From Actinomycetospora soli (GTDB taxonomy: Bacteria > Actinomycetota > Actinomycetes > Mycobacteriales > Pseudonocardiaceae), in contig NZ_JAJNDA010000014.1 in the NCBI RefSeq assembly GCF_021026295.1, positions 1 through 64,000 on the forward strand: a stretch of 64,000 bases of DNA, given 5' to 3'. The translations under genes and the position numbers were made by a program. Positions 6,843 to 40,546 of this stretch are shown here, one piece after another. Each line of letters begins with the position of its first letter. Positions within the stretch are counted from its first letter, which is position 1. The notes below the pieces were generated by a model, which saw nothing but the letters and a program-made list of their open reading frames with translations, was not told where the DNA came from and searched no databases.

Positions 6843-7502
6843 CTACCGATCGGCGGCCACCGTCAGCCCGGCGTCGCGGGCCAGCAGCGCCAGCTGCGTC
6901 CGGTTCTCCAGGTCGAGCTTCGTGAGCGCCGCGGACAGGTAGGTCTTCACCGTCGACAGCGAGAGCAGCAGCTCGGCCGCGATCCGCGCGTTGCCCCAGC
7001 CCTGCCCGACCGCCGCGGCCACCGCCCGCTCCTGCTCGGAGAGCGCCGCGAGCCGCTCGGTCGCCTCCCGCGCGGGGTTCGGCCCGCCCGTGGCGGCGGA
7101 GATGACCCGCCGCGCCACGCCGGGCGACAGGCTCGGCTCGCCGCGCGCGGCCCGGCGCACCGCGTCCTCGATCTCGGCCGGGGCCGTGTCCTTGACCAGG
7201 TAGCCGACCGCGCCCGCGCGCAGGGCGTCCAGCACGTCGTCGTCGGTCTCGAAGGTGGTCAGCACGAGGACGGCGGGCGCCCCGGGGCGCGCGGCGAGTC
7301 CGGCGGTCGCGCGCACGCCGTCCACCCGGCGCATCCGCAGGTCCATCAGCACGACGTCGGGCGCGTGCTCGGCCACGGCGGCCGGGACCTCGTCGCCGTC
7401 CGCGGCCTCGCCGACCACCTCGAGGTCGTCGGCCCCGCCGAGCATCAGGCGCAGCCCGGACCGGACGAGGGGGTCGTCGTCCACGATCAGCACCGCGATC
7501 AC
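6843..7502 (-). CDS. NarL/LuxR-family response regulator
   Basis: 219 residues. The receiver domain begins VIAVLIVDDDP, with acidic pocket D9-D10, phosphoacceptor Asp in DVVLMDLRM and conserved Lys in YLVKDT. A LuxR-type helix-turn-helix occupies the end (LSEQERAVAAAVGQGWGNAR...LSLSTVKTYLS). The GTG start at 7502 overlaps the kinase stop (GTGA), so kinase and regulator are translationally coupled. It probably binds DNA as a phosphorylated dimer; targets are unknown, though the divergent glycosyltransferase and its own operon are the nearest candidates. Confidence 0.9.
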   Translation of the reverse strand: MIAVLIVDDDPLVRSGLRLMLGGADDLEVVGEAADGDEVPAAVAEHAPDVVLMDLRMRRVDGVRATAGLAARPGAPAVLVLTTFETDDDVLDALRAGAVGYLVKDTAPAEIEDAVRRAARGEPSLSPGVARRVISAATGGPNPAREATERLAALSEQERAVAAAVGQGWGNARIAAELLLSLSTVKTYLSAALTKLDLENRTQLALLARDAGLTVAADR

Positions 7503-8692
7503 GACGCGACCTCCGCCGCCCGGCGCACCGCGGCGGGCCAGGGGATGCGCACCGCGACGCGGAAGGACCCGCCGTCGGGACCGCAGGAGAGCACCTCGCC
7601 GCCCGCGAGCTCGACGCGTTCGGCGATGCCGACGAGGCCCGTGCCGCCCGGCCCGACGGGCACCGGCGCCGGCAGCGGGTTGGCGACCACCAGCTCCGCC
7701 GCGCCCCCGGCGCGGCCGTGCAGGCGCACCTCGACGGGGCACCCGGGAGCGTGCCGCGCGGCGTTCGTCAGCGCCTCCTGCGTGATCCGGTACAGGGTGC
7801 GCCCGCACTCGTCGGGGACGGCGGCGGCCCCGCCGACGAGGTCGTCGTGCAGGGCGATCTCGGCCCCGGCGGCGCGGACGCCGTCGACGAGCCGGTCGAG
7901 GTCGGCGAGCGTCGGTTGCGGGGCGCGCTCGGCGTCCGCGGCGTCCTCGCCCTCGGTGCGCAGGACGCCGAGGATCACCCGCAGGTCGTTCAGCGCGTCC
8001 TGCGCCCCGGTGCGGATGACCTCCAGCGCGTCGTCGATCTCGGCCGGGTCGACCGCCCGGCCGCCCCGCCGCCGGTGCGCGAGCGCCGCCGCGTGCATGG
8101 AGACCAGGGAGAGGCGGTGCCCGAGGACGTCGTGCATCTCGCGCGCGATGCGGGTCCGCTCGCCGGTGCGGGCCGCCTCGGCGCGCAGCGCGGCCTCCCG
8201 CTCGGCCCGCCGGGCCCGCTCGACGAGGGACTCGAGCAACTGGGCCCGGGCCCGCACGGCGGCGCCGGAGGCGATGACGGCGGCGGAGATGAGCACCGCC
8301 CAGCCGAGGGTGCCCCACGACGTCGAGTCGGGCCGGACGTCGCGGAACGTCCACTGCACGGGGCTGATCGCGAGCGAAACGCCGCTGAGCACGGCCGCCA
8401 CGGGCCACGGGCGGCGCACGGCGACCGCGAAGGTGGCGACGGCACCGGCGAGCCACGCGGTGGTGACGACGAGGCCGGTCAGCCCGATCGCCACCGCCAC
8501 CGCGACCGGTGCCCGCCGGCGGGCGAGGAGCAGACCGGTGGCCACGAGCCCGCCCGCGAGGTCGATCCACCACCAGGCCGGGGCCTCGGGGAAGACCGGG
8601 GGCGCCGGGCCGAGCGAGAGCCACACGCCGAGCAGCGCGATCGCGGCCGCGCCGCCGTCGAGCAGACGCGGGTGCAGCGTCGACGTCCTCAC
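7499..8692 (-). CDS. DesK/NarL-type sensor histidine kinase
   Basis: 397 residues from GTG 8692, an internal start in a longer open frame, chosen because the membrane part begins soon after. Four to five hydrophobic segments in the first 170 residues (for example AAAIALLGVWLSLG, VAVAVAIGLTGLVVTTAWLAG) anchor the sensor. A HisKA_3 domain follows with phospho-His in REMHDVLGHRLSLV, then a HATPase with N-box ALTNAARHAPG and glycine loop GTGLVGIAERV. No large outside domain is present, so the stimulus is likely sensed in or at the membrane. Confidence 0.88.
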   Translation of the reverse strand: MRTSTLHPRLLDGGAAAIALLGVWLSLGPAPPVFPEAPAWWWIDLAGGLVATGLLLARRRAPVAVAVAIGLTGLVVTTAWLAGAVATFAVAVRRPWPVAAVLSGVSLAISPVQWTFRDVRPDSTSWGTLGWAVLISAAVIASGAAVRARAQLLESLVERARRAEREAALRAEAARTGERTRIAREMHDVLGHRLSLVSMHAAALAHRRRGGRAVDPAEIDDALEVIRTGAQDALNDLRVILGVLRTEGEDAADAERAPQPTLADLDRLVDGVRAAGAEIALHDDLVGGAAAVPDECGRTLYRITQEALTNAARHAPGCPVEVRLHGRAGGAAELVVANPLPAPVPVGPGGTGLVGIAERVELAGGEVLSCGPDGGSFRVAVRIPWPAAVRRAAEVAS

Positions 8693-8825
8693 GACCGCCG
8701 ACGCTAGTGCCGACCCCCGACGGCGGGCCTCCTCCGAAGGTCGACGACCCGGTGACCGAAGGATGACCCGACCGGGCACGAACACCCGAGGCGCCCGACC
8801 GGCCGGTCGCGTGAGGCTGACCGCC

Positions 8826-10325
8826 ATGTCCACCGTCACCGCGCCGCCCCCTCCCGTCGGCACGCGGGCCGTCCCGCCGCTCGCGGCCGCCGCCGGGCTC
8901 GTGGCGGGACTGGTCGGCGTGGTCCAGTTCGTGCTGTCGGTCCCGGACGGCCGCTGGTTCGACGAGGTCCTCATGCTCGCCATCGGCCGCCACCACCTCG
9001 ACTGGGGCTCGGCCGACCAGCCCCCGGTCGCGCCGCTGCTCGCCGCGGCCGCCGACGCGATCGCGCCCGACCGGCAGTGGGTGATGCGGCTGCCCGTCGT
9101 CCTGGCCTCCGCGGGCGCGGTCCTGCTCGCCGCCCTGATCGCCCGGGAGCTCGGCGGGGACCGGCGGGCCCAGACGCTGGCCGCGACCGCGCAGGCGACG
9201 GGGATCTGGGCCACGCTCTTCGGCCACTGGCTCACGCCCTACGCGCTGGAGCCGGTGCAGTGGCTGGCGATCGGCTGGCTGCTCGTGCGATGGGTGCGGA
9301 CGCGCGACGACCGGCTGCTGGTGGCCCTGGGCCTCGTCGTCGGGATCGCGGCGCAGACCAAGTTCCAGGTGTTCGGACTGTGCGCGGCGCTCCTGGTCGC
9401 CGTGGCGCTCTGCGGCCCGCGGACGCTGCTCCGTCGCCCGCTGCTGTGGGTGGGCGCGCTGCTCGCCGCCGCGATCGCGGCGCCCACCCTGATCTGGCAG
9501 GCCGCCCACGGCTGGCCGCAGCTCGCGATGGGGGCGGTCGTCGCCGCCGAGGCCGGGCCGCTCTACGGCGGCCGGGCCGGCGTGGCCGCCGCGACGGTCG
9601 TGGGTGCGGGCCTGCTCGGCGCCCCGCTCGGCGCCTACGGCCTGGTCCGGCTGCTCCGGACCCCCGACCTGCGGTTCCTCGGCGTGACGACGGCGGTCGT
9701 CGCGCTCCTCGTCGTCCTCGCCCCGGGGCGGCCCTACTACCTCGCCGGCCTGTACGGGCTGCTCGCCGCGGCCGGTGCGGTCGGGCTCCAGGGGCGGCGC
9801 GAGGCGGGCCGCGCCCGGTTCCGGTGGGTCGCGTGGCCCGCGTCGGCCCTGGCCGTCGCGCTCGCCGCCGCGGTGCTGCACCTGTCGACCGCGCTGGCGA
9901 GCCCGGTGGTCCCCGACCGGATCGTGGCCGCGACCGCGACCGCGACCGCGACCGCGAACGCCCACGACGCCCTCCCGGCGCCGGAGCGGGACCGGACGGC
10001 GATCGTCGGGGGCTCGTACATCTACGCGGCCTACGTCGACGCGGCCCCCCGGGCCCTCGGCCTGCCGCCGGCGGCCTCGCTGAACCGCAGTTACGGGTAC
10101 TTCACCCCGCCGTCGGACGACCTCGACGCCGCGCTCTACGTCGGACCGGACCCGGGCGTGCTGCGGGGGTCGTTCGCGCAGGTCCGGCGGGTGGGCGAGA
10201 TCAGCGGCGACGGCGCCCGCGGGCTCGGCGGCGAGGACCTCGACACCCCCGTCTGGCTGCTCACCGGCCGCCAGGAGCCGTGGGCGGCGATCTGGGAGCG
10301 GGAGCGGACCCTCGTCGTCTCCTGA
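8826..10325 (+). CDS. GT-C fold glycosyltransferase, PMT/ArnT-like membrane protein
   Basis: 499 residues with about eleven hydrophobic segments. The first outside loop carries the acidic motif RWFDEVLMLAIGRHHLDWG, matching the catalytic Asp loop of GT39/GT83-type transferases that use a polyprenyl-phosphate sugar. About 110 residues at the C-terminus are soluble and probably outside. The donor and acceptor cannot be told from sequence. ATG at 8826 is chosen, 133 bases from the divergent kinase start. A GCGACC hexanucleotide repeat (9930-9959) encodes an Ala-Thr run just after the last helix. Confidence 0.8.
   Translation: MSTVTAPPPPVGTRAVPPLAAAAGLVAGLVGVVQFVLSVPDGRWFDEVLMLAIGRHHLDWGSADQPPVAPLLAAAADAIAPDRQWVMRLPVVLASAGAVLLAALIARELGGDRRAQTLAATAQATGIWATLFGHWLTPYALEPVQWLAIGWLLVRWVRTRDDRLLVALGLVVGIAAQTKFQVFGLCAALLVAVALCGPRTLLRRPLLWVGALLAAAIAAPTLIWQAAHGWPQLAMGAVVAAEAGPLYGGRAGVAAATVVGAGLLGAPLGAYGLVRLLRTPDLRFLGVTTAVVALLVVLAPGRPYYLAGLYGLLAAAGAVGLQGRREAGRARFRWVAWPASALAVALAAAVLHLSTALASPVVPDRIVAATATATATANAHDALPAPERDRTAIVGGSYIYAAYVDAAPRALGLPPAASLNRSYGYFTPPSDDLDAALYVGPDPGVLRGSFAQVRRVGEISGDGARGLGGEDLDTPVWLLTGRQEPWAAIWERERTLVVS
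9930..9959 (+). repeat. Hexanucleotide tandem repeat inside the glycosyltransferase
   Basis: Four perfect GCGACC units and a fifth with one change (GCGAAC). They encode alternating Ala-Thr just outside the last membrane helix. Loss or gain of units would keep the frame, so length variation between strains is plausible. Confidence 0.85.
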
Positions 10326-10333
10326 GGGGCCCG

Positions 10334-10350
10334 TTCCCGACGACGGGTCG
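10334..10350 (+). repeat. 17-bp dispersed motif, copy A (non-coding)
   Basis: TTCCCGACGACGGGTCG, exact copy, located between the glycosyltransferase stop and DUF3046. It ends 5 bases before the TACCCT -10 box and so covers the -35 region of the predicted DUF3046 promoter. Confidence 0.8.
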
Positions 10351-33106: not shown

Positions 33107-33769
33107 GTGACCTCTGCGATCTTCTTCGGCTCGATCTCGACGGTGGTCGACACCTCCGAGCTGCAGCGCAAGGCCTTCAACCGGGCCTTCGCGGAGCACG
33201 ATCTCGACTGGGAGTGGAGCCGCGAGGACTACCTCGCGATGCTCGAGAGCAACGGTGGGGCCCAGCGGGTCGCGGACTTCGCGGCCCAGCACGGCCAGTC
33301 GGTCGACGCCGACGCGGTGCACGCGACGAAGTCGCGCATCTTCCAGGAGTCGCTCGCGACCGAGCAGACCGCTCCGCGGCCCGGCGTGCTCGACGTCGTG
33401 CGCGGGGCCAAGGAGTCCGGCCTGAAGCTGGGCCTCGTCACGACGACGAGCCGGGACAACGTGCGCGCGCTGCTCGACGCGCTCGAGCCCGACATCCGGT
33501 CCGCCGACTTCGACGTCATCGAGGACACCTCCCGGGTCCAGAACGTCAAGCCCGACCCCGAGGTGTACCGCACGGCGCTGCGCGAGACCGGCCTCGAGCC
33601 CGGCGACGTCGTCGCCATCGAGGACAACGTGGGCGGCGTCGCCGCCGCCAAGGGCGCCGGCATCACCACGGTCGCCTTCCCGAACGCCAACACCGCGGGC
33701 CACGACTTCTCCGCCGCCGACACGCAGGTGGACGAGCTGAACCTCGCCCAGCTGCGCGCGCTCGCGTAG
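33107..33769 (+). CDS. HAD-superfamily protein lacking the catalytic aspartates
   Basis: 220 residues. The overall fold is a beta-phosphoglucomutase/phosphatase-like HAD: cap domain, motif II LVTTTS, motif III Lys in NVKPDPEVY, motif IV VVAIEDN. Motif I should read F-D-x-D-G but reads FFGSIST (residues 6-12), so the nucleophile Asp is Gly8 and the acid/base Asp is Ile10. It cannot act as a normal phosphatase. It precedes the MAA operon by 85 bases with a hairpin between. GTG start with AGGAG upstream. A binding or regulatory role in the pathway is possible but unproven. Confidence 0.82.
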
Positions 33770-33792
33770 CGGCCCCCGACCTCTCGTTCGAC

Positions 33793-33816
33793 CGGCCCGG
33801 CGGTCCCGCCGGGCCG
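33793..33816 (+). terminator. 11-bp hairpin between the HAD-like gene and mysA
   Basis: CGGCCCGGCGG, two loop bases and the exact complement (33806-33816). No T-run. It could end or weaken transcription from the HAD-like gene before mysA, or cap the mys transcript. Confidence 0.55.
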
Positions 33817-33854
33817 TGATTCGACCTGCCCGGAAGAACCCAGGAGCCCAAGCC

Positions 33855-35069
33855 ATGGTCGCCCCTCAGCCCACGTTGACCAGTACCGAGACCGCGTTCC
33901 ACGTCGAGGCCTACGAGAAGATCGACTACTCGCTGGTCTACGTCGACGGCGTGTTCGACCCCGCCAACACCCAGCTCGCCGACACCTACCGGCCCTACGG
34001 TCGCGCCCTGATGATCGTGGACCGCACCGTCCACGAGCTCTACGGCGAGCAGATGCGCGCCTACTTCGACCACCACGGCCTCGAGCTCACGACGTTCCCG
34101 ATCCTCATCCGCGAGCCGGACAAGACGCTGGCGACCGTGGAGAAGATCGTCGACGCGTTCGGCGACTTCGGGCTGAACCGCACCGAGCCGGTGCTGGTGG
34201 TCGGCGGCGGCCTCATGACCGACGTGACCGGCACCGCGTGCTCGCTCTTCCGCCGCTCCACGCCCTACATCCGCATCCCCACCACGCTCATCGGGCTGAT
34301 CGACGCCAGCGTGGCGATCAAGGTCGCGGTCAACCACGGCAAGAACAAGAACCGCCTCGGGTCGTTCCACGCCTCGCAGCAGGTCATCCTCGACTTCTCG
34401 TTCCTGAGGACGCTGCCGGTGGACCAGGTCCGCAACGGCATGGCCGAGCTGGTCAAGATCTCGACGGTCGGGAACTCCGGCATCTTCGAGCTGCTCGAGA
34501 AGTACGGCGAGGACCTGCTCCACACCCACTTCGGGCACGTCGACGGCACCCCCGAGCTGCGCGAGATCGCCCACCGGCTCACCTACGACGCGATCCGCAC
34601 GATGCTCGAGCTCGAGGTGCCGAACCTCTGGGAACTCGACCTCGACCGCGTCATCGCCTTCGGGCACACGTGGAGCCCGACCATCGAGCTGACGCCGTTC
34701 CCGCCGTACTTCCACGGGCACGCGATCTCGATCGACATGGCGCTCTCGACGACGCTCGCCGAGCGCCGCGGGTACATCTCGGTCAGCGAGCGCGACCGCA
34801 TCTTCTGGCTGATGAGCCGCATCGGGCTGACCCTGACGAGCCCGTACCTCACGCCGGACCTGCTGGCGAAGGCCACCGACTCGATCACCCAGACCCGCAA
34901 CGGCCAGCTGCGCGCGGCGGTCCCGCGGCCGATCGGGGCCTGCTACTTCATCAACGACCTGACTCCCGAGGAGCTCGCCGAGACGGTCGGGACGCACAAC
35001 GAGGTCGTCCGGTCCTACCCGCGCCAGGGCGAGGGCGAGGACATGTTCGTGGTGCCGGAGGAGGCGTGA
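33855..35069 (+). CDS. mysA: Demethyl-4-deoxygadusol synthase (sedoheptulose 7-phosphate cyclase)
   Basis: 404 residues. Cyclises sedoheptulose 7-phosphate to demethyl-4-deoxygadusol, the MAA core, using NAD+ and a metal ion. Dehydroquinate-synthase fold: [20 protein letters not shown] (NAD region), [29 protein letters not shown] and metal-ligand region AFGHTWSP. The string NGMAELVKI and the [20 protein letters not shown] context match cyanobacterial MysA more closely than 2-epi-5-epi-valiolone synthases. ATG with AGGAG 9 bases upstream; first gene of the coupled operon. Confidence 0.92.
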
Positions 35070-35851
35070 CGAAGACGGCGCCCGGCGCCGCCCGCCCGGT
35101 CACGCCCGCGTCGATCCTCGCCGCCCGCCTCGAGACCCTCCTCGAGCGGGCGGCCGGGAGCGGGCTGGAGGACGAGCTGCGCGCGGCGCGCGACCTCGCC
35201 GTCGGGCTGGACCCGTACGTCGAGTCGATGACCTCGCCGGAGTCGCCCGACCTCGCCGCCCTCGCCGAGGCGACGGCGGCGTACGACTGGCGCGACGCCG
35301 CCGGGTCGCTCGAGCAGGAGATGCTCTCCGGGCACGTCGAGGGGCGCTTCCTCGCGCTGCTCGCGCACGTCACGCGGGCCCGGCGGGTGCTCGAGGTCGG
35401 GATGTTCACCGGCTACTCGGCGCTCGCGCTCGCGGAGGCCCTTCCCGACGACGGGTCGGTGGTCGCCCTGGAGATCGATCCCGAGGTGGCCGCGTTCGCC
35501 CGCGAGCAGTTCGCCGGATCGGCGGCCGGGCGTCGCATCGACGTCCGGGTCGGTCCCGCGGGCGAGACGCTGGCCGCGCTCGCCGGCGAGTCGTTCGACC
35601 TCGTGTTCATCGACGCCGACAAGACCGGCTACGCCGACTACCTGGAGACGATCCTGACGACGGGTCTGCTCGCTCCCGGTGGCCTCGTCGCGGTGGACAA
35701 CACCCTGATGCAGGGGCAGCCGTGGGCCGGGCCGGACACGGTGAACGGGCGGGCGATCGCCGAGTTCAACGCGGCGGTGGCGGCCGACCCTCGCGTCGAG
35801 CAGGTGGTCGTGCCGCTGCGCGACGGCATCACCCTCATCAGGGTGCTCTGA
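35066..35851 (+). CDS. mysB: O-methyltransferase of MAA synthesis
   Basis: 261 residues. SAM-dependent methyltransferase (CCoAOMT-like) that turns demethyl-4-deoxygadusol into 4-deoxygadusol. SAM site [20 protein letters not shown], acidic VALEID, metal/catalytic region [14 protein letters not shown] and DNTLMQG. GTG overlaps the mysA stop (GTGA). Contains an exact copy of the 17-bp dispersed motif at 35442-35458. Confidence 0.92.
35442..35458 (+). repeat. 17-bp dispersed motif, copy B (in mysB)
   Basis: TTCCCGACGACGGGTCG, exact. Encodes L-P-D-D-G-S with the rare codon CTT. The identity with copy C extends to 20 bases. Confidence 0.8.
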
Positions 35852-37161
35852 TGAACCGCGTCCTGCGCAACGTCGGCATGCAGGCCCTGCTGGCGGCGGC
35901 GCTCCCCGCGAACCTCGCGGTGACCGGGGGCGCCCTGCTGTGGAGCGCGGTCGTCGGGAAGCCCGAGCGGGAGCGGCCCGACCGGCGCCGGACCGTGATG
36001 CTGAGCGGCGGGAAGATGACGAAGGCGCTCGCGCTCGCGCGGGCGTTCCACGCGGCGGGGCACCGGGTGGTGCTCGTCGAGGCGGCGCGGTACCGCTGGA
36101 CCGGACACCGCTTCTCGACGGCGGTGGACGCGTTCCACGTCGTCCCGCCGCCGGACGACCCCGGCTACGCGCAGGCCCTGGTCGACGTGGTGCGCGCGGA
36201 GGGCGTCGACGTCTACGTCCCGGTGTGCAGCCCCGCGTCGAGCTGGTACGACGCGCTCGCGAAGCCGCTGCTCGAGCAGTACTGCGAGGTCGTGCACGGG
36301 GACGCCGACGACATCGGCACCGTCGACGACAAGGGGGCCTTCGCGGCGGCCGCGTCCGAGGTGGGGCTGCCGGTGCCGGACACGCACCGCGTCACGTCGG
36401 CGGACGAGGTGGCGGCGTTCGACTTCCCGCCCGGGGCGACGTACGTGCTCAAGTCGATCCCCTACGACTCGGTGAACCGGCTCGACCTGACGCCGCTCCC
36501 GCGCAGGTCGGCGGCGGAGACGCGCGCGTTCGCGGCGTCGAAGCCGATGTCGTCCGAGCGGCCGTGGATCCTGCAGGAGTTCGTGCGCGGCACGGAGTAC
36601 TGCACGCACGGGACAGCGCGCGACGGGGTGCTGACGGTGTACTGCTGCTGCGAGTCCTCGGCGTTCCAGCTCAACTACGACCACGTCGACGTCCCCGCGA
36701 TCGAGGACTGGGTGACGCGGTTCGTCGCCGACCGGAAGCTCACGGGGCAGTACTCGTTCGACTTCATCGTCGGCGAGGACGGTGCGGTGCGGGCGATCGA
36801 GTGCAACCCGAGGACGCACTCGGCGATCACGATGTTCTACGACCGGGAGCCGGCGCTGGCGCAGGCGTACCTGTCCGACGACGTCGCCGCGACGCTGCGC
36901 CCGACCCCGGAGAGCCGGCCCACCTACTGGCTCTACCAGGAGCTGTGGCGGCTGCTGTCCGACCCGGCCTCGGTGGGCGAGCGGTTGAGCACGCTGTGGG
37001 AGGGCACCGACGCGATCTTCTCGGTGCACGACCCGCTGCCGTTCCTGCTGGTCCACCACCTGCAGATCCCGTCCCTGCTGCTCGAGAACCTGCTGGCGGG
37101 GCGGGACTGGGTCAAGATCGACGTCAACATCGGCAAGCTGGTGGAGGTGGGCGGCGATTAG
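35851..37161 (+). CDS. mysC: ATP-grasp ligase making mycosporine-glycine
   Basis: 436 residues. Couples glycine to 4-deoxygadusol. ATP-grasp fold with Rossmann-like start TVMLSGGKMTKALALARAF, ATP-binding ATYVLKSIPYD and WILQEFVRGTEY, and metal site AIECNPRTHSAITMFY. The first 35 residues are hydrophobic (MQALLAAALPANLAVTGGALLW), suggesting membrane association. ATG shares bases with the mysB stop (TGATG); the stop overlaps the mysD start. Confidence 0.92.
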   Translation: MNRVLRNVGMQALLAAALPANLAVTGGALLWSAVVGKPERERPDRRRTVMLSGGKMTKALALARAFHAAGHRVVLVEAARYRWTGHRFSTAVDAFHVVPPPDDPGYAQALVDVVRAEGVDVYVPVCSPASSWYDALAKPLLEQYCEVVHGDADDIGTVDDKGAFAAAASEVGLPVPDTHRVTSADEVAAFDFPPGATYVLKSIPYDSVNRLDLTPLPRRSAAETRAFAASKPMSSERPWILQEFVRGTEYCTHGTARDGVLTVYCCCESSAFQLNYDHVDVPAIEDWVTRFVADRKLTGQYSFDFIVGEDGAVRAIECNPRTHSAITMFYDREPALAQAYLSDDVAATLRPTPESRPTYWLYQELWRLLSDPASVGERLSTLWEGTDAIFSVHDPLPFLLVHHLQIPSLLLENLLAGRDWVKIDVNIGKLVEVGGD

Positions 37162-38164
37162 GGCTCTGCACCTGGTCGGGTCGCCGACCGACGAGTTCTT
37201 CGCCGACCTCTCCCGGCTCTACGCGCGGGGGGCGCTGTCGGCGGTGGGCGGCCCGGGCGACGCCGTCGCGCACGTCTCGCCCGACGGCCGCTGGCGCTTC
37301 CCGCGGGACCTGTCGCCGGAGGCCCTCGAGGCGGCCCCGCCGGTGGACCTGGCGGGGGCCGTGGGGCACCTGACCGCGCTCGCCCCCGACGTGATGGTCC
37401 CGCAGATGTTCTGCCCGGCCGGCATGACCGCCTACCGGGGTCTCTTCGACGTGCTCGGTGTGCCCTACGTCGGGAACCCGCCCGAGGTCATGGCGGCCTC
37501 CATGGTCAAGCCGCGGGCGAACGCGCTGGTGGCGGCGGCGGGCGTCGACGTGCCCGCCTCGGAGGTGCTGGCGGCGGGGGAGTCGCCGGGTCTCGAGCCA
37601 CCCGTCGTCGTGAAGCCCGCGGACGCGGACAACTCGGTGGGGACGACGCTCGTGCGGGCGGCGGGGCAGTACCCGGACGCGCTCGCCGCGGCGTTCGAGC
37701 ACTCGTCGTCGGCGCTCGTCCAGACGTTCGTGCCGGCGGGCCGGGAGGTGCGCTGCGGGGTGCTCGACCGCGGGCACGGGCTCGAGTGCCTGCCGCTCGA
37801 GGAGTACCCGGTGGGCGATCTCGCCCCGATCCGCGGGGAGGCCGACAAGCTGGCGCGGTCCGACTCGGGGCAGCTCGGGCTGGTGGCCAAGGGCGAGGGC
37901 CGGGCGTGGATCGTCGACGTCGCCGACCCGGTGGTCGACGCCGTGTGGGAGGCCTCGCGGCGCTGCTACACGGCCCTGGGCTGCCGGGACTACGGGTTGT
38001 TCGACTTCCGGATCGACCCGGACGGCCGCCCGTGGTTCCTGGAGGCGGGCCCGTACTGCTCGTTCAGTCCGTCGAGCGTGGTGGCGATGATGGCCGCGGC
38101 CGGCGGGATCGAGCTGCCGACGTTGTACGGCGACCTGCTGGCGCGCGCCGTCGCCCGGGGGTGA
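37157..38164 (+). CDS. mysD: D-Ala-D-Ala ligase-like enzyme making disubstituted MAAs
   Basis: 335 residues. Adds a second amino acid to mycosporine-glycine, giving shinorine-type products. ATP-grasp motifs VVVKPADADNSVGTTLV, REVRCGVL, and FDFRIDPDGRPWFLEAGPYC at the metal site. The first ATG/GTG in frame is at 37244, but that would delete the conserved RALHLVGSPTDEFFADLSRL region. An ATT at 37157 lies 9 bases after GGAGG and overlaps the mysC stop (ATTAG), so the start is probably ATT. GTG overlap with the next gene (GTGA). Confidence 0.88.
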   Translation: MRALHLVGSPTDEFFADLSRLYARGALSAVGGPGDAVAHVSPDGRWRFPRDLSPEALEAAPPVDLAGAVGHLTALAPDVMVPQMFCPAGMTAYRGLFDVLGVPYVGNPPEVMAASMVKPRANALVAAAGVDVPASEVLAAGESPGLEPPVVVKPADADNSVGTTLVRAAGQYPDALAAAFEHSSSALVQTFVPAGREVRCGVLDRGHGLECLPLEEYPVGDLAPIRGEADKLARSDSGQLGLVAKGEGRAWIVDVADPVVDAVWEASRRCYTALGCRDYGLFDFRIDPDGRPWFLEAGPYCSFSPSSVVAMMAAAGGIELPTLYGDLLARAVARG

Positions 38165-38595
38165 CACTGCGGTCCGTGATCAGGCCGCTGGTGCTGGGCG
38201 TGGTGCGTCGGGGGGACGACCTCCTGGTGCTCGAGGGACACGACACCGTCACGGGCGAAACCTTCTACCGGCCGCTCGGTGGGGGCATCGAGTTCGGTGA
38301 GCTCTCCGAGCAGGCGCTGCACCGGGAGTTCCGCGAGGAGCTCGACGTGTCGCTGACGGGCGTCGCGCGTCTCGGGGTGCTCGAGAACGTCTTCGAGCAC
38401 GAGGGCGTCCCGGGCCACGAGATCGTGGTGCTCTACACGGCCTCGATCACCGACCCGGCCTTCTCCCAGCGCGCCGACCCGGGGCCGATCCTGGACGAGG
38501 GCACTCCGGTGCGCTGGCTGCCGTTGCGCGACGTCGTCGCGGGGCGGGCCGTGCTGTACCCGACGGGTCTGCTCGAGCTCCTCACCGGTCAGTAG
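38161..38595 (+). CDS. NUDIX hydrolase, last gene of the MAA operon
   Basis: 144 residues. NUDIX box at 41-63: G-x5-E47-x7-REFREELDV, complete in its metal-binding Glu residues (the usual GU is DV here). Hydrolyses a nucleoside diphosphate linked to another group; the substrate is unknown. GTG overlaps the mysD stop, so it is translated with the pathway. NUDIX proteins are not a standard part of MAA synthesis. The end overlaps the convergent DUF222 gene by 14 bases. Confidence 0.88.
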   Translation: MTLRSVIRPLVLGVVRRGDDLLVLEGHDTVTGETFYRPLGGGIEFGELSEQALHREFREELDVSLTGVARLGVLENVFEHEGVPGHEIVVLYTASITDPAFSQRADPGPILDEGTPVRWLPLRDVVAGRAVLYPTGLLELLTGQ

Positions 38596-40546
38596 GGCGG
38601 GTCGTCGTCGTTCTCGGGGGTGGGGTGGCGACGCGTCGGATGGGGCGGCGGGCGAGGAGGTATTCGACGGTGGCGAGGGCGGCGGTGGTGATGCGGCCGT
38701 CGGGGGTGGGTCTCGGGGTGTAGTCCGTGGTGGTCGGTGCGGGCTGGTGGACCGGCGTGTGGTGGTGGGCGGGCAGCGGGTCGGGCAGGGGGCGGACGAC
38801 GCGGCTTCGGGTGTGGTGGACGGTGCCGGTGGGGTCGGTGATCTCGAAGTGGCCGGGGGTGGGTTGGTGGTAGGTCCAGCCGCGGCGGTGCTTGGCGGCG
38901 TGGTGGGCGGGGCAGAGGTTGGCGAGGCCGTCGGCGCGGGTGCGGCCGCCGTGGTGCCAGTCGAGGGTGTGGTCGTGTTCGCAGCGGCGGGCGAGCGCGG
39001 TGCAGCCGGGGGCGACGCAGACGGGGTCGCGGGCGTCGATCCAGCGGGCGAGGGCGGCGCCGGGCAGGCGGCGGTCGGCGTCGCGGTCGGTGGTGGCGGG
39101 GTGGTCCTCGGGTGCGGCGGCGCGGGAGCGGCGGTGGGCGGTGAGCAGGTCGGCCAGCCACGGGTCGTGTGTGGCGGTGGTGTCGAGTTCGTCGAGCAGT
39201 GTCTCGGGGGCGGTGATCTCGACGGTGCGGCGGTGGTGGCGGGGGTCGTGGTGGGCCCCGGGTGGGGCACGGTGGACGAGCAGGTGGGTCAGTCGGCCCT
39301 GGTGGTCGTGGACGAGGACGTGCCAGCGGGCGGCGCCGAGGTCGTGGGCGCGGCGGCGGGCGATCTCGGGGAGGGTGCCGCCGAGGCCGGGGAGTTCGGC
39401 GGGTCGTTCGTCGTGTCCGAGCAGGGTCGACAGGCGCATCCGCAACGCGACCCCGGCCGGGTGCGGCACCACCACCGGCGCCGGGTCGGTCGCTGAAGTG
39501 GCACCGCCGCTGCCATCCGGGGCGCTGCCGTCCGGGGCGCTGCCGTCCGGGGCGCTGCCATCTGAGGCGCTGCCATCCGTGCCGCCGCCGAGGTCGTCGC
39601 TCCCCGGTCCGCTGTCGTCCGGCCCGCTGCTGTCCGGGTCGTCCGGCCGGTCCGGGTCGTCCGGGTCGTCGTCGGGGCCGTTGTCGTCGGGATCGTTGTC
39701 GTCGGGGTTGCTGTCCGGGTGGCCGGCGAACTCGGCCACCACGGCGTCGGTGACCGCGGAGTCGTCGAGCCCGGCCAGGGTGCCGTCGAGGAGCCGGGTG
39801 AAGATCCGGGCGCAGAGGAACCCGACCCCCAGATCGACCCCGAGGACCGCCAACCGGGCCTGCACCGCGACCGCCAGCGCGTCCAGATGCGACTTGGCGT
39901 CCTGGGCGAGGTCGGGGCGCAGGTCGTAGCCACACAGGTCGACCGCCCCCGACGGGGAGGTCCGCGCCGCCACCCGCGCCCGCGCGACCGCGGCCGCGAG
40001 CCGCCCCGCCGCCCACTCCGGGTCCAGCGCGCGGGCGACCTCGAGGATCCGTTCGCGCAGCGCCTGGTAGGCCAACCCGGGCGCCTCGGGCAGCACGATC
40101 CGGACCACCTCGGCGACCTGGTGGTCCTCCAGCCCCTCGGTCGCGGAGTCGAAGATGTCGGCCTTGCGTTCCTCCAGCAGCCCCGCGTACATCGCCTCGC
40201 CCAACGCCGGCTGGGCATCCAGCACGAAACACGCCAACCCGTATCGGGCCGACGCCGTGATCGGCGACCAGCCCAGGTTCGCCGCCGCGGCCTTCGGGGC
40301 GAACCCGTCGTCGAGGACGCGGCGGCAGTCGTCGGCGCGGGCCCGGCAGGTCTGACGCAGCGCGTCGAGGAACACCACGTCGTCGTGGTTGCGCTGCCGG
40401 AACGCCGCCCGCATCCACGCCGCGGCGTGCTGCCCGGTCAACTCGGCCGGCGACACCTGCGCCAGCGCGGCCGCGAGCCCCGGACCAGCAGGGATCCCCG
40501 CGAACGGGTCCCCACCCGGGGTCTCGACGCCCACCACCGCTGCCAT
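38582..40546 (-). CDS. DUF222 / HNH endonuclease protein (13E12-repeat type)
   Basis: 654 residues. N-terminal DUF222 domain (about 1-270), an Asp/Pro/Ser-rich linker with tandem DGSAP units (about 280-345), a second DUF222-like part, and an HNH nuclease domain at 510-553 with metal-binding Cys pairs (CVAPGC, LCPAHH) and core HDHTLDWHHGG. Mycobacterial 13E12 proteins share this layout and are LexA-regulated; a LexA-like box lies 3 bases upstream of this start. The biological role of the family is not settled. ATG at 40546. Confidence 0.85.
   Translation of the reverse strand: MAAVVGVETPGGDPFAGIPAGPGLAAALAQVSPAELTGQHAAAWMRAAFRQRNHDDVVFLDALRQTCRARADDCRRVLDDGFAPKAAAANLGWSPITASARYGLACFVLDAQPALGEAMYAGLLEERKADIFDSATEGLEDHQVAEVVRIVLPEAPGLAYQALRERILEVARALDPEWAAGRLAAAVARARVAARTSPSGAVDLCGYDLRPDLAQDAKSHLDALAVAVQARLAVLGVDLGVGFLCARIFTRLLDGTLAGLDDSAVTDAVVAEFAGHPDSNPDDNDPDDNGPDDDPDDPDRPDDPDSSGPDDSGPGSDDLGGGTDGSASDGSAPDGSAPDGSAPDGSGGATSATDPAPVVVPHPAGVALRMRLSTLLGHDERPAELPGLGGTLPEIARRRAHDLGAARWHVLVHDHQGRLTHLLVHRAPPGAHHDPRHHRRTVEITAPETLLDELDTTATHDPWLADLLTAHRRSRAAAPEDHPATTDRDADRRLPGAALARWIDARDPVCVAPGCTALARRCEHDHTLDWHHGGRTRADGLANLCPAHHAAKHRRGWTYHQPTPGHFEITDPTGTVHHTRSRVVRPLPDPLPAHHHTPVHQPAPTTTDYTPRPTPDGRITTAALATVEYLLARRPIRRVATPPPRTTTTRPTDR
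39509..39583 (-). repeat. 15-bp tandem repeat, five units
   Basis: Units of GCTGCCGTCCGGGGC with up to four changes, in the linker of the DUF222/HNH gene. On the coding strand each unit gives five residues of the DGSAP type. Unit number can vary without frameshift. Confidence 0.85.

Follow-up and report, generated by a model that had tools for sequence, protein, structure and literature searches.

The stretch of DNA analysed here (the window, 64,000 nucleotides of contig NZ_JAJNDA010000014.1 of the soil actinobacterium Actinomycetospora soli, from a genome of 6.5 Mb in 69 contigs) contains the genes mysA, mysB, mysC and mysD, predicted to form a cluster for a mycosporine-like amino acid (MAA), with a gene for a HAD-like protein before them and one for a NUDIX hydrolase after them (Table 1). 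As natural absorbers of UV light, MAAs are wanted for bio-based sunscreens. All six reading frames are complete and lie on the forward strand. In the stretch from mysA to the end of the NUDIX gene (33855 to 38595) the genes are translationally coupled, every stop codon being overlapped by the next start (GTGA, TGATG, ATTAG and GTGA), while the HAD-like gene is uncoupled, with 85 bp between its stop codon and the mysA ATG. An earlier reading of the same DNA (the original prediction) had described complete, coupled mys genes with the coupling running into the NUDIX gene and a HAD-like gene just upstream of mysA, and all these frames and overlaps were found. The inverted repeat in the gap before mysA could decouple expression of the HAD-like gene from that of the mys genes; a scan for sigma-70-type promoters and terminators found no site.

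Table 1. Genes and features of the mys locus, with positions in the window
Feature	Position	Strand	Remarks
HAD-like protein, 220 aa	33107..33769	+	HAD_2 above cut-off; closest solved relative CbbY; G-S-I in place of the catalytic DxD
Gap between HAD and mysA, 85 bp	33770..33854	+	perfect G+C-rich inverted repeat with 10-base arms, read directly
mysA, predicted sugar-phosphate cyclase of the 2-demethyl-4-deoxygadusol synthase type	33855..35069	+	DHQ_synthase; PDB 5tpr match
mysB, predicted O-methyltransferase	35066..35851	+	Methyltransf_3
mysC	35851..37161	+	NCBIfam NF005315
mysD, D-Ala-D-Ala-ligase-like	37157..38164	+	Dala_Dala_lig_C; frame starts at ATT inside the overlap with the mysC stop
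NUDIX hydrolase gene, coupled to mysD	38161..38595	+	Pfam NUDIX; clade-limited addition

Judged by sequence comparison, MysA is a cyclase of the MAA type and nearer to it than to other sugar-phosphate cyclases: it matches PDB entry 5tpr, which we take to be the desmethyl-4-deoxygadusol synthase of Anabaena, with 592 bits (residues 7-400) against 286 bits for the cyclase 4p53. MysB and MysD match their Pfam families above the cut-off (164.6 and 69.3 bits, respectively). MysC, presumably a ligase of the ATP-grasp type, has no match in Pfam or the PDB and is recognized by an NCBIfam model named 'hypothetical protein' (411.9 bits, cut-off 406). The overlap at the start of mysD (37154-37159) contains no ATG, GTG or TTG. 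Two relatives (L032 and L034) have a GTG one codon earlier, where the window has GCG; the nearest start codon left is the ATT, which lies behind a GGAGG stretch. The order mysA-B-C-D is common to relatives across Actinomycetota and its recurrence means that the layout is not due to chance. The window is thus predicted to hold a standard mysABCD cluster for an MAA. Actinobacterial clusters of this kind were reportedly described by Miyamoto in 2014; the window is like them in the content and order of mysA to mysD and differs by the added HAD-like and NUDIX genes and by the absence of a gene for a TauD dioxygenase. A further MAA cluster is mentioned for Nakamurella (PMC9789016).

The HAD-like gene is a real part of the mys cluster. 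In a family sample of 249 genomes of Pseudonocardiaceae, 25 of which have MysC at E 1e-30, there are 19 HAD matches at 53-100% identity, followed by a gap down to 41% and less. Each of the 19 has mysC no more than about 5 kb away. They come from 19 of the 25 mysC genomes, namely the window's own and 18 of the remaining 24, whose loci were all fetched, and the linkage has a Fisher p of about 1e-23. The gene is missing from six mysC loci of the family: L050-L052, which are mysABCD clusters, and L053-L055, which are divergent and of the order mysC-A-B. In a class sample of 394 genomes searched for MysC at E 1e-50, the ten genomes with MysC are the same ten that have a close HAD, the two genes adjoining in the nine loci fetched and in the window; two weaker HAD matches (36-39%), both with an intact DxD motif, come from genomes in which MysC has no match. 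Together these two unselected samples have the HAD-like gene in 28 of 34 mysC clusters. A scan of a collection of species genomes gave 230 loci with HAD relatives. The analysis kept the best 80 of these; chosen by their HAD, they are uninformative on mys clusters without one. Among these best 80, the nearest named relatives of the window's protein come from Actinomycetospora (85-97% identity) and 77 loci carry a mys gene. One of the three exceptions (L097) sits on a contig that ends 59 bases past the HAD-like gene, in a genome with mysA about 200 bp from the end of another contig, and the other two (L101 and L134) are cyanobacterial, with MysC elsewhere in both genomes. The original prediction had asked whether the two extra genes go together with mysA more widely; for the HAD-like gene the answer is a clear yes in the family, the class and the kept loci.

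The HAD-like protein is predicted to have the fold of CbbY over its full length. CbbY is its best solved match (E 3.6e-40, 36-37% identity to 4uar, 4uat and 4uau), and a Foldseek search with its AlphaFold2 model (predicted local distance difference test score, 96) returned as top PDB match the D10N variant of CbbY with xylulose bisphosphate, at a template modelling score of 0.90. CbbY removes xylulose bisphosphate (PMC10212915), being a xylulose-1,5-bisphosphate phosphatase; the mys-type HAD shares its motifs II-IV and differs in that D8, D10, E17 and H20 are all replaced. Motif I is FGSIST in the window where CbbY has FDVDGT, and it reads [FL]GS, without the nucleophilic Asp, in all 107 mys-type HADs from the fetched loci, ten of these loci being duplicates reached through the same genomes by two routes. 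In an alignment of 60 mys-type with 13 active-type proteins, D8 is replaced by G, E17 by S and H20 by Q in 60/60, and D10 by I in 57 and L in 3; position 9 is S in 60/60. The 13 active-type proteins have D8, E17 and H20, with V, L, C or M at position 9. The phosphate-site residues T112 (motif II) and K148 (motif III) and the acidic pair E172-D173 (motif IV) are retained in 60/60 mys-type sequences. Invariant in both groups are K148, E172 and D173 and, between motifs I and II, the residues N25, W37, Y42, G50, G51, R54, K75 and R91.

The mys-type HAD therefore lacks the motif I DxD of CbbY, both nucleophile and acid, as the original prediction had supposed in calling it inactive, and on the ground of motif I an ordinary phosphatase role in the pathway is rejected. 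Decay to a pseudogene is rejected too: between the window and its relatives L033-L035, the ratio of non-synonymous to synonymous substitution rates (dN/dS) is 0.08-0.22 for the HAD-like gene and 0.10-0.21 for mysA to mysD. The protein may represent a bacterial case of a metabolic pseudophosphatase. In a tree of 98 HADs, made by a quick method with a warning of long branches, nucleophile-less and active types are split with a support of 99 in the Shimodaira-Hasegawa-like approximate likelihood ratio test, while the separation of the mys-type group from two outside kin reaches 79 only.

The usual partner of the mys-type HAD is a dioxygenase of the TauD family (PF02668). Among 113 fetched HAD or mys loci the order HAD-mysA-B-C-D-TauD occurs 53 times and HAD-mysA-B-TauD-C-D 22 times; of 106 loci with mysC, duplicates and cut contigs included, 88 have both HAD and TauD, 12 HAD alone and 6 neither. 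A search of 224 genomes of the order gave 17 TauD matches at 54-66% identity, every one beside HAD and mysC, and TauD is present in 21/28 mysC loci with HAD compared with 0/6 without it (p 0.0013, related genomes). No TauD gene lies in the window between 25001 and 45000, and for a palythine-type TauD the genome gives only generic matches of 31-34% identity, MysH not having been searched for. TauD is likewise absent from L032-L035, which form the window's clade, and from L043, L133 and L209, all of them loci with 4 kb or more of sequence on either flank. On the HAD tree L043 stands next to L042 and L133 next to L129, both TauD-bearing neighbours, for which the simplest explanation is repeated loss of TauD with retention of HAD. 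The dN/dS range given above comes from the TauD-free clade and indicates that HAD is maintained without TauD. A role as merely a helper of TauD is weakened by these TauD-free loci.

Seven of the best 80 of 230 loci are cyanobacterial (L090, L101, L103, L105, L127, L128 and L134). HAD and TauD are adjacent in six of them; L127 is the exception, its contig breaking off shortly behind HAD. The pair stands without a mys gene in the locus in L101 and L134 and precedes a divergent mysA (37%) in L105. On the tree the seven proteins nest within the actinobacterial ones, which suggests that they were acquired by transfer. The G+C content of these loci is 0.43-0.51, compared with 0.63 in two Rhodococcus loci, and actinobacterial contamination is therefore unlikely.

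The presence of HAD and TauD in MAA clusters is already known. A 2025 preprint on GATOR-GC (PMC11888242) reports both as conserved, showing the HAD in actinobacterial clusters on the example of Pseudonocardia alni with TauD as the second gene, and calls the role of HAD unvalidated. It refers to unpublished results on an operon of Rhodococcus fascians that includes HAD and TauD and led to shinorine and palythines in Streptomyces, and it names MAA clusters in Pseudomonadota and Bacillota. According to the same preprint, Cyanobacteriota have neither HAD nor TauD, in contrast to the cyanobacterial loci described here. Its main text does not contain 'inactive', 'nucleophil', 'pseudoenzyme', 'aspartate', 'CbbY' or 'nudix', and among the matches listed in the open literature no paper deals, by title and start of abstract, with the missing catalytic residues of this HAD. 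New here are the loss of the catalytic pair, the HAD-TauD pairs in cyanobacteria and the retention of HAD without TauD.

We tentatively favour a joint reading in which the mysABCD genes are accompanied by a dedicated pseudophosphatase that binds a ligand and acts in regulation or scaffolding, the NUDIX gene being a recent local addition. The HAD would derive from relatives of the CbbY-type sugar-phosphate phosphatases that kept fold and phosphate site and lost the catalytic pair. With D8, D10, E17 and H20 replaced and the phosphate site retained, it should bind its ligand, most likely a sugar phosphate, and not hydrolyse it, and its part in the pathway could be that of a regulatory or scaffolding subunit controlled by the ligand. 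Its ancestral partner was probably the TauD dioxygenase, the presumed palythine-forming enzyme; a second task, independent of TauD, might persist and would be what remains in the window's clade. Such a conserved but catalytically disabled protein points to an auxiliary step missing from mysABCD constructs, and its role is testable in natural experiments, namely the loci that keep HAD without TauD and the HAD-TauD pairs away from mysABCD. A bolder scenario, possible but on balance improbable, is that a CbbY-like lineage lost the catalytic pair once, by coordinated change of D8, D10, E17 and H20, to become a non-hydrolytic sugar-phosphate sensor, and that actinobacteria and, by transfer, some cyanobacteria wired this sensor and TauD into sunscreen synthesis, whose output would then follow the state of the pentose-phosphate pathway.

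Several observations weigh against the joint reading. The p-values for the linkage and HAD-TauD tests overstate independence since the genomes are related. HAD is not essential, as seen from the mysABCD clusters L050-L052 and from its rarity in cyanobacteria, a search of 214 of which gave a mys-type HAD match only in the centre genome. The mysABC genes of Rhodococcus fascians alone led to mycosporine-glycine in Streptomyces albidoflavus (PMC11284840), so this product is reached without HAD; together with the absence of HAD from some clusters this makes it auxiliary. Two loci (L047, reverse strand, 7225-10334, and L081, 10001-13913) have HAD, TauD and mysC-mysD with no mysA or mysB in the locus, and no MAA-type mysA was found in their genomes (none in G082 and only a 29% match in G249). 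The missing mysA speaks against a role that depends on MysA or its substrate; these clusters may import the ring precursor or borrow it. Finally, nucleophile-less HADs of the GSIG type occur without mys genes nearby on a Roseobacter litoralis plasmid (L136, 14989-15657) and in a cyanobacterium (L210, 7352-8053). The nucleophile-less family is wider than the MAA clusters, and the loss of the catalytic residues is therefore older than the link to MAAs. The cyanobacterial GSIG-type gene adjoins what reads as an ADP-glucose pyrophosphorylase gene.

Instead of binding only, the HAD might still be an enzyme, one that has acquired a chemistry other than that of a phosphatase and acts on an MAA intermediate with a carboxylate; it could, for instance, help to cleave a C-N bond on the way to palythines once TauD has hydroxylated the amino-acid side chain. 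We consider this rather unlikely, although all 17 MAA-type TauDs have HAD alongside, the pair is adjacent in the six cyanobacterial loci, two of them without a mys gene, and several of the residues that took the place of the old ones never vary. Against it, L043, L133, L209 and the window's clade have HAD and no TauD, with purifying selection on HAD in the window's clade. Moreover, MysI, a TauD-family enzyme put forward as the one that forms palythines in cyanobacteria, is proposed to hydroxylate a residue that then departs spontaneously (PMC10510106). The HAD neighbour in related clusters belongs to the same family as MysI (TauD/TfdA, Nostoc sp. UHCC 0926), which is grouped here with MysH under the palythine dioxygenases; the comparison with MysI is one at family level.

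A carrier or sensor of sedoheptulose-7-phosphate working with MysA only appears unlikely as well. Such a role would fit the position of HAD: of the 102 loci that contain both genes, 100 have HAD on the mysA strand and 95 have it no more than 300 bp upstream (median gap for the 100, 31 bp). It would also fit the pairwise distances of HAD, which track those of MysA best (r 0.72, compared with 0.71 for MysC, 0.67 for MysB, 0.62 for TauD and 0.61 for MysD); these come from 78 loci that had to hold all six proteins, so that TauD-free loci are excluded. The partial correlations are nearly the same for MysA (0.36) and TauD (0.35), and the distances pick out no single partner. Against it speak the two genomes that keep HAD without an MAA-type mysA found and the HAD-TauD pairs away from mysA in L101 and L134.

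The NUDIX gene is a clade-limited addition and not a conserved cluster gene. The protein has a Nudix box, read from the translation, and matches Pfam with 41.1 bits (cut-off 21.1). Relatives with E up to 1e-20 occur in 17 of the 249 family genomes. Five lie beside mys genes, in the window and four genomes of the same genus that form one clade (5 of the 25 mysC genomes); the other 12, at 54-63% identity, are unlinked to mys, and 11 of these belong to a single other genus, in genomes where MysC has no match. Only 3 of the 80 kept HAD loci have the gene, and the copy in L032 is broken across frames. The co-occurrence looked for in the original prediction thus fails here, and a general pathway enzyme is rejected on linkage. 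That the NUDIX protein is nevertheless a true MAA enzyme of the window's clade, clearing for example a nucleotide or sugar-nucleotide by-product, seems quite improbable to us. Its gene is coupled to mysD and lies behind it in the four close species too, and relatives of any kind are commoner in MysC genomes (6/25 compared with 11/224, p 0.003), but five of those six belong to one clade. The unlinked relatives, the broken copy and a dN/dS of 0.20-0.31 (window and L033-L035), the highest average of the six genes, also count against it. We would rather see a recent local addition behind mysD, probably with a house-cleaning function. Lastly, residual phosphatase activity of the HAD through a migrated nucleophile such as Ser9 is very improbable, since nucleophile and general acid are both gone and we know of no HAD that uses Ser at that position, even though S9 is invariant and T112, K148, E172 and D173 are kept.

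Some minor features of the loci may be added. Two of them have mysA, mysC and mysD with no mysB found (L206, 8134-8230, and L093, 11907-12142), the spacing between mysA and mysC being about 100 and 235 bp, respectively. In the window, a cytochrome P450 gene (31405-32673, Pfam p450) lies upstream on the same strand, and a long frame on the reverse strand (38582-40546), which has no Pfam match, converges on the NUDIX gene and overlaps its end.

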